This document shows positions 4,736 through 57,327 of a stretch of DNA of 64,000 nucleotides, piece after piece. Positions within the stretch are counted from its first letter, which is position 1, and each line of letters begins with the position of its first letter. The DNA is from Micrasema longulum (Eukaryota; Arthropoda; Insecta; Trichoptera; Brachycentridae). The notes beneath the pieces were generated by a model. The model searched no databases. It saw only the letters and a program-made list of their open reading frames with translations, and had not been told where the DNA came from. The translations under genes and the position numbers were made by a program. The stretch spans positions 62,001 to 126,000 of the forward strand of contig JAGVSM010003594.1 in NCBI GenBank assembly GCA_022494885.1, given 5' to 3'.

Positions 4736-4965
4736 CTTAAACAATATTTTGAGTATGTCGAAATGTTTGCAGATAGGCTGGAATTCCTCCCTACAGAGTC
4801 ATTTAGATCCAAAGTTGTTACGACAGAGGGATAAAATATTTTAAAGAGGGGAATATGAAAGTCTAGGCATTTACATGACGTATGACCTTCATTGGGTGGT
4901 TTTAGTGGCCACTTTATATACTTTGTAACATTCACGATTCTGACTAAGGTTACAAAAAAAAGTTC
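4736..4965 (+). mobile_element. H1 element, left arm
   Basis: Starts AACAATATTTTGAGTATGTC, continues through CAGATAGGCTGGAATTCCTC and a GACAGAGGGA segment, then GAAAGTCTAGGCATTTACAT and GTGGCCACTTTA. This is the outer and middle part of an H1 arm. No second arm is adjacent. Confidence 0.65.
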
Positions 4966-9742: not shown

Positions 9743-10482
9743 CAACGTCATGGTCTTTGAAAGAAATGTAACTATGACTGAATGTAAGATTGTAGTAAAT
9801 GGAGATAGTTTGAAACAGGTCGAAGAATTTGTATATCTGGGTAGTATGTTTACTAGAGATGGAAATATGGACAAGGATATTGAAAGGAGGGTTAGTGCCG
9901 GTAACAGAGTTAATAGTGCCTTAAAGTCTGTGTAGCAAATAAGTGTCTATCGCAAGAGGCTAAATTAGCAGTTCATAATGGAGTTCTGGTACCAACCCTA
10001 ATGCATGGAAGCGAAGCATGGAGTTGGAAAAAAAGGGACGAAAGTAGACTGAATGCTGTTGAAATGCGATCCCTCAGGCGAATGTGCGGAAAAACAATGT
10101 ATGATAGGTGCCCTAATGTCGAAATTAGAGCAGAATGCAAGGCTGAGTTAAGCATTATCGACAAAATTAAGAAAGGTCTTTGCGATGGTTCGGTCATGTG
10201 GAGCGAATGAATGATGAAAGAACGGCACGGCTAAAAAGATTTATGATGCGAATGTGTCTGGTTGTAAAAGTCGAGGAAGGCCGAGAAAGACATGGCATGA
10301 TCAAGTACAACAAATTCTTGAAAGTGGTCATGTGAAAAGTCGAAATAATCGACATCGCATGAGAAGATGTATGAATGTGAAGGAAGCAAAGGAAGTGTGC
10401 CAGGACAGAGTGGTGTGGCGTTCTATCCTCTCTGCCTACCCCTCTGTGGAAATGGCGTGATGGTTAGTTAGTTAGTTAGTTA
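9743..10482 (+). mobile_element. RTE-clade LINE, 5'-truncated copy with 13-bp target duplication
   Basis: This is the C-terminal part of an RTE-type reverse transcriptase in three frames: M-V-F-E-R-N, V-E-E-F-V-Y-L-G-S, D-I-E-R-R-V-S-A-G-N (9750-9935), then L-M-H-G-S-E-A-W-S-W, E-M-R-S-L-R-R-M-C-G (10001-10210) and G-R-P-R-K-T-W-H-D, W-R-S-I-L-S-A-Y-P-S (10254-10460). A stop near 9935 and a frameshift near 10200 disable it. The 3' end is a (GTTA)n run. GTTAACAAAATAA flanks it at 9730-9742 and 10483-10495, as expected of target-primed insertion. No RT catalytic core remains. Confidence 0.85.
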
Positions 10483-14865: not shown

Positions 14866-15234
14866 ACTCACATCCGTGAACAACTAATATTACATGTAAA
14901 AATATTTTCGTTTCGCGACGTATAATCCTGCTGCGCGATCACATATTTGAATTTCACCGGTATAAATATGGGAAATATTCCAATACTGCTATTTTTATTT
15001 ATTTATTTATTATTTATCATGCTACATATTGCATATAGCCGGCGGCTGACCAACCAAATGTCAAGAAAAGCGGTCGCCATAGGAATTATAATTTAATTTT
15101 TCCTTTTTTGTATTAGATACTCCTTACTATTTTATCTTTTATGGCAAACGCCGATTTTTCGCCAATGAATCGTATTTACTTACGAGGAAAAAACAAACCG
15201 ACACAAGCTTTGACTTAGAGATTATTTATTTATT

Positions 15235-16260: not shown

Positions 16261-16271
16261 GTCCATTTAAT

Positions 16272-16860
16272 GTTAACATATTACAACAGAGATGAAGAAC
16301 ATTTAAGAAAAGGTAATATAGAAGTCTAGGCATCTACAGGGCTAATGACCTGTCATTGGCTGGTTTAAGTGGCCACTTTACACACTGAGTAACATTCACC
16401 ATTCTGCCTATATTTGAACATCTATATTCCTTCAATTCTTTCATCTGTTGATGTTTGTGAAGTTAAAGATCTGAAACCTTTATTTATGCGGGTGAGATTC
16501 ATCCAATTGAAATTTTTCACCTACATACTAGGCCTGAAAATATTATTTTTTCAATTTCTATACTTCTTCATGGACCAGGTAATTTTATCAACAATATTTT
16601 GAGTTTGTCCAAATTTTGAAAGAAAGAATTGAGAGGAATATAGATGTTCAAATATGGGCAGAATGGTGAATGTTGCACAGTGTGTAAAGTAGCTACTTAA
16701 ACCAGCCATTGACAGGTCATAAGCCCTGTAGATGCCTAGACTTCTATATTACCTTTTCTTAAATGTTCTTCATCTCTGTTGTAATATGTTTATGTAAACG
16801 GCTCCCCAGGGAGTTGAATCCAGTCCTTGTCTACAAAAATTTGGACAAACTCAAAATATT
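16272..16860 (+). mobile_element. H1 palindromic element with 11-bp target duplication
   Basis: The left arm begins at 16272 (GTTAACATATTACAACAGAG). The inverted right arm (CTCTGTTGTAATATGTTTA) ends near 16795. A tail of about 65 bp ends ACAAACTCAAAATATT at 16860. GTCCATTTAAT flanks it at 16261-16271 and 16861-16871. The arms carry CTACAGGGCTAATGACCTGT and GTGGCCACTTTACACACTG. The loop has a piece of the outer end (CAACAATATTTTGAGTTTGT). No coding frame. Confidence 0.85.
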
Positions 16861-16974
16861 GTCCATTTAATAATACTTGAAATATTGTAATGTGTTTCAA
16901 TTACAATAAATGCGGTCAAGCGTTCTACCGACCGGTTTCAAGCTCTTTATAAAGGTATTATTTACTAATAAATT

Positions 16975-17095: not shown

Positions 17096-17569
17096 CTCTG
17101 ACACAGTTGTATAAAAGTTACGCATTTATTATGTATGTATCAATTTTGACCATAAACTCTTTTTAAACATAGCTCTTTTATTAACAAATAGGAAACATAT
17201 TAAACGTGAAGTAAACAACGAAAAATATGAGATTGATACCTTATCACTTGAACTCGAGGTTTATAAAAATTAGCTGAGTGTGATCCATTTTGATTTATAG
17301 ATTATAATAGCGGATTAGTTCGGAATATCAATCTGTATAGATTTTCCGTGTCTGGTGGAATGAAAAATACAGTTGTCTGTGAAATAGAATCAAAACCTTA
17401 GATGAGTGATGTCTACTCGATGGCTACTTTTTAAATCTAATATAAAAAGTACCTTTTTACGACATTCAGCACGTAAAAAAACTACAAATAACAATTGTGA
17501 ACACACCTTGCTTAAGACCACACGACAGAAGCAAAAACTTATATGGCGATTATAATCGATTCAAAATAT

Positions 17570-17920
17570 TACAACAGAGATGCAAAACATTTTAAAGAAG
17601 GGAATATAGAAGTCTAGACATTTACTGGGCGCAAAACCTGTCATTTGCCGGTTAAGGTGGCCTCAGGTTTTAAATCTTTAAATTCACAAACATCAACCGA
17701 TAAAAAAATTGAAGGACCATGTATGTGTACAAATATAGGCAGTATCGTGAATGTTACAGTGTGTAAACACAAAGAAAGATAATATGCCCTGCAGATGTCT
17801 AGACTTATGTATACCCTTCTCTAAAATGTTTCCTTGTTTAATATGTTAATAGTAACAGCTCCCTAGGGAGTTGAGCCCAGTCCTTGTCTACAAAAATGTT
17901 GTCAAACGCAAAAAATTGTT
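17570..17920 (+). mobile_element. H1 element with 12-bp target duplication
   Basis: Begins TACAACAGAGATGCAAAAC and ends ACGCAAAAAATTGTT, flanked by GATTCAAAATAT at 17558-17569 and 17921-17932. The left arm has lost the middle section. The right arm and tail (CTCCCTAGGGAGTTGAGCCC, TTGTCTACAAAAATG) are present. Confidence 0.8.
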
Positions 17921-18320
17921 GATTCAAAATATGTCAAATATATTTCAATAAAGATGATGTCGATAAATATGTTTTTATTTATGAGTTTTATGTGTTTTTA
18001 TTATGTTTTATATATATTTGAGATTATGATTTAATTATATTAAATAAGACATGTTTTGAAATTACATAAAATGTTTTCCTTGGCACGAGACACCCTAGTG
18101 TCGACGAAAATTTGAACAAACGCAAAAAATTGTTGATTCAAAATATGTTGAATATATCCCAATAAAGATGATGTCGATAAATATGTTTTTATAATTGAGT
18201 TTTTTTTTGTTTTATATGTATTTGATATTATGATTCAATGATGTTTTATAAAGCATGTTTCGAAATTGTATAATATGTCTCCCTTGGAACAGGACACCCA
18301 GTGAGGGAACATTACCATCA
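17907..18320 (+). repeat. 214-bp tandem duplication (H1 tail plus LINE 3' end)
   Basis: CGCAAAAAATTGTTGATTCA recurs 214 bp apart (17907 and 18121 region), with AAAGATGATGTCGATAAATA and CCTTGG(C/A)ACGAGACACCC in both units. The unit joins the H1 tail to a LINE 3' end of the GGCACGGGACACCCC type, so duplication followed the H1 insertion. Confidence 0.7.
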
Positions 18321-29009: not shown

Positions 29010-29330
29010 TCATAGTATAAACAGTAAAACAAGTGTAATACTCACTACATTTTTATAATTTAGAAAAGAAGTCGTTAAAAAGTAATGATTTAAATTTATA
29101 TAAAGATTAATAAAATAAATGTATGTTTTCATGTTTGTTTGCCAACATGTGGAGCTGTGAAATAGGTGAGTATTTATCATAATTTGAACTATACAAACAA
29201 CAGCAAAAGAAGTATTTTGTCTCGTCCCACGCTGTCTCACATAAAAATTCACACAATTTAAAAGTTCGGGACTGTCAAGAACATTATTCAATAACCTGAA
29301 AAGCAGCACTAAATCTGAAATTTCCCTACT
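29010..29330 (-). mobile_element. Jockey/R1-like LINE relic
   Basis: Frame 29309-29010 begins M-L-L-F-R-L-L-N-N-V-L-D-S-P-E-L-L-N-C-V-N-F-Y-V, the same C-terminal block as J1-J3 but from another family. The reading frame then enters a 3' UTR-like region. Confidence 0.55.
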
Positions 29331-29694
29331 ATCACTAAAACATATTAATTTTTACTGCTTGATTAAACATTTATAGTTTAGCTCTTCAACTGTAATGTTC
29401 AATTTGAAATTAATAAATATTAAAAACTTATCTTGGACCTTCTCCATACTGTTTATATAGGTAACAAAATATTGGTCATATTATTTTATTTTGTTGTCTT
29501 TTGAAAGATAATTTCAATTGCGCCCTATTTATGAAAATCCACCTCAAGGGTTATTTCAGGGGTCTTTATTTATTTATTTATATTTGGATAATTTATATAC
29601 CGCCGTTTTTGTGAAAATCACCTCTTTTACGTCTGTTTTATAACCGGTTTTCCAGAAAGCGATCATGTATCTCAATTATCTCTTAACTTTTAAA

Positions 29695-33949: not shown

Positions 33950-34415
33950 AGTACCTGCAATATTTTGAATTTGTCCTAATGTTTGTGGATAAAAAACTGG
34001 ATTTCGCCCGCTAGGGAGTCATTAAAATTAACATTGATTATTACATATTTGTAATTTGTTCATCTTTATGACTCCGTAGAGGGTGAATACCAGTCTTTTG
34101 TCCCAAAATATTGTCATAAAACCAACTGGTCTAAGAAGAAGTAGAAAGATTGAAAAATTGTTTTTAGGCGTTGCCTAGTGTTTGAAATAATTAGATAAGA
34201 TGAATCTCTTCACAACAATAAAAGTTTCAGCTCTTTAACTTCAGTAAAATCAACAGATAGAAAAATTAAAAATATATGAATTTTCAAACGTACGCAAAAT
34301 GGTAAATGTTACACAGTGTGTAAAGTAGCCACTTAAACCGGCCAATGATAGGTCATAAGCCCTGTAAATGCCTAGATTTACATATTCCCTTCTCTTAAAT
34401 GATTATTGATCTAAT
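33950..34415. mobile_element. H1 element, diverged two-armed copy
   Basis: The left end GCAATATTTTGAATTTGTCC leads to an inner segment with TTTAGGCGTTGCCTAGTG and TTTCAGCTCTTTAACTTC. The right arm has TGTTACACAGTGTGTAAAGT, CCACTTAAACCGGCCAATGA and ATAAGCCCTGTAAATGCCTA. Ends not resolved. Confidence 0.65.
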
Positions 34416-35885: not shown

Positions 35886-36172
35886 AAAATATATATTTTT
35901 AATAATTTGGCTTTGTTCGATAGTCTACTAACAAATAAATAGATATATTCAACTTCCTCATTGTACAATGATTTATCCGAAGACAGCCTTCATATCATTT
36001 CAAATCAATCGAAAAATATGTTATCGACACGTTTTCTCATAATATAAAAAGTCAGTTGCAGGTAACGCCAGCGCGACATTGCATAAATTTATTAATTATT
36101 AATCACAATATGGTTCACTCACTGTGCTGCGTGTTGTTCATATAAGGAATTCATATTTACGTTGTCTATGCT

Positions 36173-36768
36173 ATTTTTCTATAATGTATGCTTCCACTTT
36201 CCCTTATATTTTATCCCAACTCAACACAGGACTTTTGGTTTAAAGGATTTTGGAATACGCAAATCTGTACCTTTGAAGATAAAAACAAGGGAGTCGACTT
36301 TTTGCTATTTTGTTTTTAAGTTGAATATGCAGAAATTACCGCATAAGCTATTTTATACGTGAATAAAACACCAGAGTCCAACAATGTTTGGTTATGTTCA
36401 AATGCTTGCAGACTGGCTGGATTTCCTCCCTAGGGAGTTGTTCATATTTTAATTTATTTCAAGAGAGAGGTATTTTTCTATAATGTATGCTTCCACTTTC
36501 CCTTATATTTTATTCAAACTCAACACAGGACTTTTGGTTTAAGGATTTTGAAATACGCAAATCTGTACCTTAGAAGATAAAAACAAAGGAGTCGACTTTT
36601 GGCTGTTTTGTTTTTAAATTGAAAATGCAGAAATTACCGCAATAAGCTATTTTATACGTGAATAAAACACCAGAGTCCAACAATGTTTGATTATGTTCAA
36701 ATGCTTGCAGACTGGCTGGATTTCCTCCCTAGGGAGTTGTTCATATTTAAATTTATTTCAACAGAGAG
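36173..36768 (+). repeat. 299-bp direct tandem duplication
   Basis: Unit 1 36173-36471 and unit 2 36472-36768 share TTTTTCTATAATGTATGCTT, AACTCAACACAGGACTTTTG, GATAAAAACAA(G/A)GGAGTCGA and an H1 outer end (CTGGCTGGATTTCCTCCCTA). Identity is high, with scattered substitutions and single-base indels. The unit is a family S LINE end joined to H1. Confidence 0.8.
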
Positions 36769-36815
36769 GGAAAAAAAATTGAGAGGGGAATATGGAAGTC
36801 TAGGCATTTACATTT
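36685..36815 (+). mobile_element. H1 fragment, left arm outer part
   Basis: CCAACAATGTTTGATTATGT, then GACTGGCTGGATTTCC, CAACAGAGAGGGAAAAA and GGAAGTCTAGGCATTTACAT. Confidence 0.65.
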
Positions 36816-40604: not shown

Positions 40605-40735
40605 GATTAGAATTCCAACAGTCCATGCGCTCAGTAGCTGCAAGACTTGTTGTTATCTAACTTCTATTTTTATAAATTTGTTTTTTATTTCATTTTTTAA
40701 ATATCACTAAAACTCTAAACATCATTGTCAAACAT
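40605..40735. repeat. Single unit of the 51.9/54.9-kb tandem repeat
   Basis: GAATTCCAACAGTCCATGCG, CTCAGTAGCTGCAAGACTTG and TATCTAACTTCTATTTTTAT are the inverse of 55141-55210. A lone, dispersed unit. Confidence 0.55.
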
Positions 40736-40737
40736 AT

Positions 40738-41352
40738 TACAACAAAGATGAAGAACATTAACGATAAGATAATATAGAAGTCTAGGCATCTACAGGGCTT
40801 ATGACCTGTCAATGGCTGGTTTAAGTGGCCACTTTACACATTGTTTAACATTCACTATTCTGCCCATATTCGAACATCTATATTCCTTCAATTCTTTCAT
40901 CTTCATGGACCAGGTAATTTATCAACAATATTTTGAGTTTGTCCAAATTTTTGTAGACAAGGACTGGATTCAACTCCCTGGAGAAGTATAGAAATTGAAA
41001 AAATAATATTTTCAGGCGTTGCCTAGTATGTAGGTGAAATAATTCAATTCGTTGAATCTCACCAGCATAAATAAAGGTTTCAGCTCTTTAACTTCACAAA
41101 CATCAACAGATGAAAGAATTGAAGGAATATAGATGTTCAAGTATAGGCAGAATGGTGAATGTTACACAGTGTGTAAAGTGGCCACTTAAACCAGCCATTG
41201 ACAGGTCATAAGCCCTGTAGATGCCTGGAACTCTGTATTACCTTCTCTTAGATGGTCTTCATCTCTGTTGTAATATGTTAATATAAACAGCTCCCCAGGG
41301 AGTTGAATCCAGTCCTTGTCTACAAAAATTTGGACAAACTCAAAATATTGTT
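40738..41352 (+). mobile_element. H1 element, long two-armed copy
   Basis: The left arm starts ACATATTACAACAAAGATGA. The loop contains the outer end (ATCAACAATATTTTGAGTTT) and CAGGCGTTGCCTAGTATGTA. The right arm goes from GAAAGAATTGAAGGAATATA through GTTACACAGTGTGTAAAGTG to CATCTCTGTTGTAATATGTT. The tail CTCCCCAGGGAGTTGAATCC ends ACTCAAAATATTGTTG. This is the fullest copy of the family. The target duplication is not clear here. Confidence 0.8.
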
Positions 41353-41384
41353 GATTTACCCAAATGTTTAAATTTTGCGAGCCA

Positions 41385-45010: not shown

Positions 45011-45536
45011 TTTACAAACATTCTGCAATCATTCTAACTTATCAAGCAGTTCAGAATTTGCATCTGGGTAACAGACGTCTTTAAAAATATATACTCAAAA
45101 ACGTACAATTTGTAGGTTTGGTCGATGCAATTTCATATGTATTTCCAAACACACATAACATGACGGTATTACATTACTTCTTAACACAGAAATTACCAAT
45201 AATATTGATATTTCTACAATTATAATTGACTACTCTAATTCAGTTCATATAAGTTTTACTATGACAAAAAATATATACAGTCTTCATTATTTATCGTCCA
45301 TGGCCTCAAGATAGTGAAGTCTTCATAAACAAACAACAAAAAAAATATAGAGACTGTATTTTGGGAAACATTCATTTATTCTCTTGGGTTTATATTTTGT
45401 TTCTTATATCAAAATATTTATTCTGTGTATTTTTACTGTGTACGTGCTGTAACGTAAAACTGATTAAATAATTATTTATATTTACGCACAGGCTTTGTCT
45501 ACGTATATTTTATTATGTTTTATGTTATGTTTGTAT

Positions 45537-45741
45537 TAACATATTACAACAGAGATGAAGAACATTTAAGAAAAGGTAATATAGAAGTCTAGGCATCTAC
45601 AGGGCTTATGACCTGCCAATGGCTGGTTTGGCTGTTTGGCAATTGGCTGTCAATCTCTGTTGTAATATGTTAATATAAACAGCTCCCCAGGGAGTTGAAT
45701 CCAGTCCTTGTCTACAAAAATTTGGACAAACTCAAAATATT
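45537..45741 (+). mobile_element. H1 short copy with 13-bp target duplication
   Basis: Starts TAACATATTACAACAGAGAT and ends ACAAACTCAAAATATT, flanked by GTTATGTTTGTAT at 45524-45536 and 45742-45754. Most of the inner arms and loop are deleted. The tail is complete. This is the clearest target duplication of the family. Confidence 0.9.
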
Positions 45742-46079
45742 GTTATGTTTGTATGATATGTAATGAAAGAAAAAAATATAATAAATATTTTTAAAATATA
45801 GAATTACATCTGAGGTTTTTTTATTTTATGATTTCTTTTACAATATTTTATATAAAATAAGTTATGCATGTGTACTTGTTAACTAAGGTTTATTCCTAAG
45901 AGATTGTTCGTAAAATTTGGGAGAATGAGTATCATTAAACATGTCGATTTTGTTATTTCGGCAGTATAAGCTAAATTTCCGACACATGTATGCCAAAAGT
46001 GTGTAGTATGTTGCATTACGTTAAAATTAAGTCAGTTTTAATATGTTCTGCGCCGCGCCGCAAAACGCTCGCCACTATG

Positions 46080-56184: not shown

Positions 56185-56640
56185 TCAAAATAGTAGGAGA
56201 ATCCTGCTCCGGAAAACCACTTCGGATACATGGAACAGATCAACATCCAGAGCGATGTTGTTCAGCATAGCGGTAGCCCTTCCAACGGGCAGGGCGGTCC
56301 TGTATATCGGAATATGAAACAATCTATGCTGACGCTGTCTTAGGTAATTATCAGGAACATACAAACCAATGCTCATCATAATCTCAGGATTATCGCCCAT
56401 TCCGCGCAACAATGGATAAAAATGTGTAGTCAAATACAACTTCCTTCTAGTCTCTAAACTGTTGAAGCCAAGCATACCCTGGAGAAACTCAGTCGGGTAG
56501 AGCCAAGGATAACACCTGCACTTATATAGAGATATCTCAGAAACTTTTTTAGATTTTCTCTATCATAAGAGAGCTTATGGTTCGATGCGTTTTGTCGTTC
56601 GTTAAATACCGTAAATAAATTAATTATCAACAAAATAAAA
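56185..56640 (-). mobile_element. Jockey/R1-like LINE relic (family J3)
   Basis: Frame 56475-56185: M-L-G-F-N-S-L-E-T-R-R-K-L-Y-L-T-T-H-F-Y-P-L-L-R-G, I-G-L-Y-V-P-D-N-Y-L-R-Q-R-Q-H-R-L-F-H-I-P. An upstream frame (56600-56490) has K-K-F-L-R-Y-L-Y-I, the L-R-Y-L-Y block before it. A frameshift near 56480 separates them. Confidence 0.75.
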
Positions 56641-56672
56641 ATGAAGGTGGTTCTACAATGCAATATTTTAAT

Positions 56673-57327
56673 TATTTATTTTTTTTGGTATGTGTATTTT
56701 TGTACATACACAAATCTGGATTTCTCCCGAGGGGGAGTAGGTATATATTTTTTTATCAATATTCCTACAGAGATGAGGTAGAGTTTTTTCGAATTCAGGA
56801 TTATCGATATTCGAGCGTTTACAGGGCTTATGACCTGTCATTGGCTGGGAATATTGATAAAAAATATATACCTACTCCCCCTCGGGAGAAATCCAGATTT
56901 GTGTATGTACAAAAATACACATACCAAAAAAATAATGTTGTGTAATAAGATCTGGTCAAAATATAAGTATAAATAAATTGCAGAATCATCTGCAGGCGAT
57001 TACTAGTACTTAATTTAACTCGGAAGAGTCTTAAATATATAAAATAAAAGTAATATGCTAATTAAAAATACTTAACTTCAATATCAATACATAGATGGTG
57101 CTCCAACACGCTAGTGAATGCTTTCTCATTTAATAAGATATATACAAGAATCAAAATGATACCAATGTCGATATTCGCTAATAAGCGGAATGGGGAATGT
57201 TGTTAAAACGTAAAGTGGCCACTCAACCCAGCCAATGACAGGTCATAAGCCCTGTAAACGCTCGAATATCGATAATCCTGAATTTGAAAAAATTCTACCT
57301 CATCTCTGTAGGAATATTGATAAAAAA
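56673..57327. mobile_element. H1-variant palindromic element, 12-bp target duplication
   Basis: CAATATTTTAAT flanks at 56661-56672 and 57328-57339. Inside, arms 56681-56765 and 56848-56932 are near-perfect inverted copies (CACAAATCTGGATTTCTCCC and its complement) around the H1 core ACAGGGCTTATGACCTGTCA. A second inverted H1 core at 57205-57260 (AAAGTGGCCACTCAACCCAG) and the end TAGGAATATTGATAAAAAA follow. Confidence 0.75.

Follow-up and report, generated by a model that had tools for sequence, protein, structure and literature searches.

The 64-kb window analysed here (the whole stretch of 64,000 nucleotides) carries many copies of a repeat, H1, which is probably a non-coding hitchhiker of a Penelope-like enzyme, built of tandem units and inserted head-to-head by priming on both target strands. 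This reading draws on what the copies themselves display, namely their anatomy, their flanking duplications, two empty sites, fixed outer ends, differing centre junctions and a cut motif, and on the presence of GIY-YIG Penelope-like elements in the genome; from these we infer an RNA intermediate, the order of the steps and the kind of enzyme involved.

H1 is abundant and non-coding

A search with three sequence modules (A, M and T) identified 21 H1 clusters covering 3,783 bp across the window, in agreement with the earlier note, which had put the number at about 20 copies or fragments in 64 kb. In a 250-kb sample from the same 584-Mb genome, 35 clusters accounted for ~3.5% of the bases. This sample comprised 25 blind loci, 21 of them contig starts and 4 internal pieces, chosen independently of what they contain, and shuffled versions of both the window and the blind loci gave 0 H1 matches. 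Scaled from the sample, in which the contig starts may be repeat-enriched, a rough figure for the whole genome is ~82,000 clusters. The 589-nt H1 query returned 7,235 first-look candidates, 40 of which were scored.

The window (C3419:62001–126000) is eukaryotic DNA of low GC content with one reverse-transcriptase fragment, and its recognisable gene fragments suggest an arthropod host. It contains no start-codon open reading frame reaching 150 amino acids, and no coding sequence was seen in any H1 copy inspected. RTE-like LINE 3' ends with GTT-, GTTA-, GTTT- or GTA-type tails occur at window positions 10435 and 40639 (minus-strand count) and at loci L006, L007 and L014.

H1 copies are assembled from three modules and carry a tail at one end

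The building blocks of H1 are module A (181 nt), module M (140 nt) and module T (72 nt), which follow one another, with the tail at the right, in the order A+ M+ T- [A+ A-] T+ M- A- T+, the middle being partly missing. Reverse-complementing the right half, minus its last T, gives the left half. An inner junction at which CAAAATATTGTTG meets ATAAATTACCTGG lies in the direct half, which is therefore a tandem of [M- A- T+].

In the copy on which the earlier note centred, the inverted end is a module A without a tail that starts with TTAACATATT (16273..16453, plus strand), followed by module M (16454..16585, plus), an inverted piece of T within the loop (16589..16617, minus), the module A of the direct arm (16622..16790, minus) and a terminal T (16793..16860, plus) that comprises the hairpin CTCCCCAGGGAG, a second predicted stem and the end CAAAATATT. 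The arms at 16275–16431 and 16634–16790 are 96% complementary. The element had been described as palindromic with a one-sided tail; the tail is as described and terminates in ACTCAAAATATT, whereas the arms proved to be assemblies of A, M and T around a centre that was different in each two-ended copy examined.

Five of the other copies in the window were delimited as well. A short copy at 45536..45741 (plus) consists of A+(1–94), A-(21–1) and T, and another at 40729..41353 (plus) has an oppositely oriented loop with an inverted T at its centre. Older copies lie at 17561..17921 (plus), at 4740..4946 (minus; tailed, with T at 4740–4805 and A at 4818–4946) and at 33958..34412 (minus). Two further structures were observed: a larger palindrome (56620–57061 and 57164–57317) whose core resembles H1 and whose two ends both have tail-like sequence, and a tandem duplication at 36172–36769 of two 299-bp units that are 95% alike and bear one old H1 tail apiece.

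The outer ends were compared among 14 young clusters from the blind loci and the window, in which two L012 rows represent one split copy. A recognisable outer A end was present in 10 copies and lay at the first base of A in 8 of these 10, the other two (L018 and the window copy, at 40731) beginning at the third base; the left end is thus nearly constant, as had been claimed, and the untailed end has a sharp limit at TTAACA. All nine two-ended copies among the 14 young clusters had the tail at a single end (incomplete in L005 and L009), and the remaining clusters were single-ended (L013, L018), an internal fragment (L020 907–1442) or an older copy (L023). At the 24 loci L026–L049, where L026 is the reported window copy (L026 1502–1682 corresponds to window 16273–16453), 18 copies had one tailed and one untailed end, three had no outer tail at either end (L037, L039, L040) and three were truncated (L041, L043, L048).

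One tail sequence folded better than most of its shuffles (z -2.64). A covarying tail structure was rejected after 20 tails yielded just 3 conserved pairs without any double changes, as was an origin of the tail from an Rfam or tRNA-derived RNA, for which there was no match. An exact tail 22-mer had 0 occurrences in viral contigs.

Target duplications are short and variable in length

Flanking direct repeats were sought around 30 two-ended copies, obtained from 45 automatic start–tail pairs by removing 17 with a start or tail at an internal junction and adding two by hand (L029 and the second L012 copy); the tail of the 17561 copy was set to 17921. Copies with an end missing, cut or untailed (L005, L009, L013, L018, L037, L039, L040, L041, L043 and L048) fell outside this test, as did older fragments lacking both ends. 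An exact repeat of ≥8 bp was found at 22 of the 30 copies, compared with 20 of 870 control pairs in which flanks were exchanged between copies. Repeat lengths were 8 bp (three copies, one of them the doubtful 17561 copy), 9 bp (two), 10 bp (one), 11 bp (four), 12 bp (nine) and 13 bp (three). No clear duplication was evident at the other eight (both L012 copies, L022, L023, L024, L036, L046 and the window copy at 40729), with L036 and L046 showing imperfect candidates by eye. When the repeat was anchored at the element start, a test that permits 0–3 extra bases and is hence partly met by construction, a repeat of ≥7 bp was recovered in 19 of 28 copies and none in 9; it abutted the element exactly in 17 (7 bp in one, 9 bp in two, 10 bp in four, 11 bp in five and 12 bp in five) and left 1 or 2 extra bases before the element in two. 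The proposal that target duplications vary in length therefore holds, at 8–13 bp in the first test and 7–12 bp in the 17 start-anchored copies.

Two of the individual duplications listed previously are exact, namely the 11-bp GTCCATTTAAT of the reported copy (16261..16271 and 16861..16871) and the 13-bp GTTATGTTTGTAT at 45524/45742 around the short copy, for which the left duplication is delimited as GTTATGTTTGTA (45524..45535) and the right as GTTATGTTTGTAT (45742..45754). The string listed for 17558/17921, GATTCAAAATAT, is present; it is doubtful as a target duplication because it belongs to a repeat of ~90 nt found after 17900 and again after 18114 (window 17890–18200), and constrained tests there recovered 8 bp or nothing.

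Empty paralogous sites back two of the duplications. The target of the L044 insertion has uninterrupted paralogues at window 29314..29470 (minus strand) and L018 3670–3831, in which the duplicated bases occur once, and the target of the L042 insertion has a paralogue at window 15040..15141 (minus strand), in which the site itself shows mismatches and a gap of 3 nt. Together with the flanking repeats, these two sites make an RNA-primed insertion of H1 well supported. A separate H1 copy at L012 3600–4420 (minus strand) is flanked by the 12-bp repeat ACAAAAACGGTA and has ~38 extra bases past its tail, a possible 3' transduction.

These data also bear on whether H1 might be a DNA transposon of the foldback or Mutator kind, with TYAAC(A)ATATT as its short terminal repeats and private internal deletions arising from gap repair. 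That motif is recognisable by eye at both H1 ends (TTAACATATT and TCAACAATATT), the target motif is roughly symmetric, and gap repair can yield private deletions, as it does in P elements. Set against this, repeat lengths vary, one-ended copies exist, the left end is different in older H1 subfamilies (TAAATTT), and the position of the tail end shifts by several nucleotides, a looseness that disfavours a transposase with exact ends. A single fixed target length, which the earlier note regarded as the mark of a transposase, is disfavoured by the observed spread: a fixed duplication of ≤8 bp lengthened by chance was rejected, since 0 of 200,000 simulations were as extreme at a length of 8, and a fixed 9 or 10 bp would require end matches in most copies and mutation in others. 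What is left is a length near 10 bp combined with end microhomology and mutation, which is itself disfavoured, and the symmetric end motif keeps the transposon reading barely alive, as the least credible of the explanations weighed here. Known foldback and Mutator-like DNA elements (for example Tm1, as described in excerpts of PMC3169594) share long inverted arms with H1, which differs from them in its variable duplications, sliding tail end and differing centres.

Centre junctions differ in all 23 copies compared

When 23 two-ended copies were aligned to a reference half, every one had a distinct pair of centre end points. Left halves ran to 67–511 nt and right halves to 21–563 nt, with L049 lacking a right half. 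The two halves overlapped by 1–9 nt at 9 of 23 centres (by 1 nt at five of these) and were separated by gaps of 1–7 nt at 8 and 11–72 nt at 6, and microhomology at the junctions was weak. An apparent constancy of the summed left and right lengths near 520 in many copies was dismissed as selection by the 589-nt query. The pattern suggests that each H1 insert is made of two pieces with fixed starts and many stop points.

Left end points were found inside T in 9 of 23 copies and clustered to the extent that 7 of 23 lay within 13 nt, a concentration matched by 5 of 5000 random sets; right end points of the same 23 copies had no comparable cluster. This clustering is partly explained by the choice of copies, because most came from the top matches of the 589-nt query, which itself has its left point in the cluster; L001, however, was not chosen in this way. 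Shared ancestry of some centres, or a hotspot, may also lie behind it.

The clustered left points lend some weight to a rival in which a non-coding hairpin RNA was retroposed whole, so that the palindrome was inherited and the centres were lost later or during copying. Arms that are ~95–97% alike in good copies and constant outer ends agree with such a history. An inherited hairpin would nevertheless be expected to share centre junctions, and these differ in 23 of 23 copies; single-ended copies without a second half (L013, L018, L043 and L048) also tell against it, and we consider this rival very unlikely. The earlier note had proposed target-primed reverse transcription of a non-coding foldback RNA. 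Its first part is upheld by the variable repeats and the sliding tail end, and its second part, the foldback RNA as template, is not supported in view of the differing centres, with the clustered left points as a caveat.

The main rival to the Penelope reading is a LINE with twin priming, according to which a LINE, such as the common RTE-like LINE, would have moved H1 as a SINE-like RNA, the inverted halves of which would be products of ordinary twin priming. Differing junctions, some of them slightly overlapping, are compatible with twin priming, and the 8–13 bp repeats of H1 and its tail ending near GTTG can be set beside the 11–14 bp direct repeats and (GTT)n-like tails at 5 of 8 RTE-like LINE 3' ends. 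Twin priming starts at variable places, as known from L1, whereas the inverted outer end of H1 is nearly constant. The five LINE copies with such repeats are short (0.4–2.2 kb between repeats) and presumably 5'-truncated, the LINE 3' ends inspected by eye lacked T, and no tRNA or other known RNA head was detected in the window at tool thresholds (0 hits with ARAGORN and 0 at the Rfam gathering score for tRNA, 7SL or 5S heads, from which a decayed head could escape). On balance we regard the LINE explanation as unlikely, if less so than an inherited hairpin.

Outer ends and target sites point to two priming events

A linear tandem RNA with a second, fixed start site for reverse transcription accounts better for the constant left end than a foldback template does. 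In H1 the inner border of T marks the start of the inverted end, and its outer border that of the direct end. Both outer ends resemble start sites of reverse transcription, one on either side of the 72-nt T; judging from these end positions, the tail would be the sequence between the two start sites. At the tailed end, the remnant that follows ATATT was an exact prefix of GTTGAT, or was absent, in 15 of 19 copies, the four exceptions being GTTGTTG, ATTG, GG and GTTCAT. The tandem sequence GTTGATAAATTACC at internal T+/M- junctions continues T as the tail remnants do, and tails ending in a prefix of GTTGAT would be accounted for if synthesis started inside a longer tandem RNA.

Cut sites, compiled by hand from the duplication data, carried RTT directly after the cut at 7 of 19 bottom-strand and 7 of 20 top-strand sites, in every case as GTT. 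This preference had P values of 6e-5 (bottom) and 9e-5 (top), or 8e-4 and 1e-3 after correction for the choice of repeat ends, and of 7e-7 for GTT alone.

In the mechanism that we propose, H1 RNA would be a non-coding, linear tandem of a 393-nt unit [M- A- T+], on which a Penelope-like reverse transcriptase/GIY-YIG endonuclease would act in trans. The enzyme would nick both target strands 8–13 bp apart, favouring 5'-RTT right after the cut. The nicked bottom strand would prime one cDNA at the 3' border of T, around AUAUU/GUUGAU, and the nicked top strand another at the 5' border, between AAUAUGUUAA and UAUAAAC. Both cDNAs would extend toward each other, halt at variable points and become joined, and the product would be a head-to-head insert whose outer ends are constant and which has a single tail, a private centre junction and a short duplication.

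H1 shares its layout with Penelope-like elements

A purified Penelope-like protein has been reported to cleave and extend both strands, with 5'-ATT-3' as the most cleaved motif on each, and to start reverse transcription at two sites inside the RNA, the genomic tail being the stretch between them; start-site use did not differ between strands, and second-strand synthesis and later insertion steps were left to be validated (PMC11167929). For Adineta vaga, excerpts of PMC3846280 describe a layout of an inverted pLTR, a direct pLTR, an open reading frame or cargo and a further direct pLTR, with an optional one-sided tail, 8–10 bp duplications, cargo moved in trans, and head-to-head inverted copies that were attributed to self-priming. 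Direct pLTR-like repeats with an inverted copy at the opposite end are likewise found in H1 (L044 and L045, where A- T+ M- A- T+ is preceded by an inverted A+), and cutting of both target strands at ATT-like sequence is seen in the RTT counts given above.

Penelope-like elements with pLTRs (Pen2a_Av and others of Adineta vaga, PMC3846280; Poseidon PAc, PMC11167929) share with H1 an inverted 5' copy without a tail, direct repeats around an inner segment, a one-sided tail, tandem units, AT-rich targets, ATT-like cuts on both strands and short, unequal duplications. H1 differs from them in having no coding sequence, no detected hammerhead and a very high copy number; its tail measures 72 nt, as opposed to 30–40 nt in Penelope-like elements, and it uses one start site at each end, whereas no strand difference was seen in PMC11167929. 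A cargo mobilised by Penelope, an NRPS gene between pLTRs (excerpts of PMC3846280), resembles H1 in being non-Penelope sequence with a target duplication and differs in size and abundance, H1 being short and having reached a very large number of copies. Like SINEs, H1 is non-coding, abundant and RNA-primed and has a defined tail, but it has no detected tRNA-, 7SL- or 5S-like head and its inserts are mirror images. Animal and plant retrozymes are small, non-coding tandem units thought to use the enzyme of other elements; H1 differs from these in that no hammerhead was found in it and its inserts are head-to-head.

This genome contains at least 43 GIY-YIG matches, at least one of them bacterial, and among the matches listed, opposite-strand Penelope-like GIY-YIG neighbours 0.7–5 kb apart occurred on C5023, C403, C2333, C2237 and C3215. 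Relatives of one Penelope endonuclease were present at 5 of 25 blind loci (two of them, L023 and L013, weak), and at L018 an inverted pLTR piece could be seen by eye ahead of a truncated Penelope-like element. An open reading frame combining reverse transcriptase and GIY-YIG endonuclease was absent from the H1 copies inspected, and H1 is at most a non-autonomous Penelope-like derivative.

A weak search for coding elements bounded by H1 modules found none. The Penelope family at L050–L052 has a 3' region that differs from H1; an apparent occurrence of H1 modules at its ends was just an old partial H1 copy beside L051, and a resemblance of its 3' end to H1 was not significant, being equalled by 152 of 1483 matched controls. 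Rfam searches at E up to 10 found no hammerhead in H1 at three loci, and Rfam likewise gave no match (E up to 0.5) in L050–L052, where a hammerhead-like motif is visible by eye. One GIY-YIG match, on C3360 (L053, C3360:137150–138650), was rejected as a transposon, as it reads as a bacterial UvrC with a 653-aa open frame. The L053 uvrC has an inserted stretch that we take to be Rickettsia-like, and a contig from a symbiont seems to be part of the assembly (L053).

Implications for Penelope-like retrotransposition

In a literature search limited to titles and abstract openings, with most subscription literature outside its reach, no non-coding head-to-head hitchhiker of Penelope was encountered, and the phrase 'nonautonomous Penelope' was not seen in excerpts of PMC6685494. 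A broader reading of the finding, on which we are close to evenly divided, is that H1 serves as the SINE-equivalent for Penelope-like elements at tens of thousands of places, with one start site per target strand; such a division of labour has not been observed in vitro.

If our reading of H1 is true, its thousands of short inserts would allow the nick sites, start sites and joining of Penelope insertion to be mapped from sequence. How Penelope insertion is completed is poorly settled (PMC11167929), and H1, as a natural record of it, would help. It would also mean that an inverted repeat can arise anew rather than by inheritance, which calls for caution in annotating elements as 'foldback' or MITE-like.
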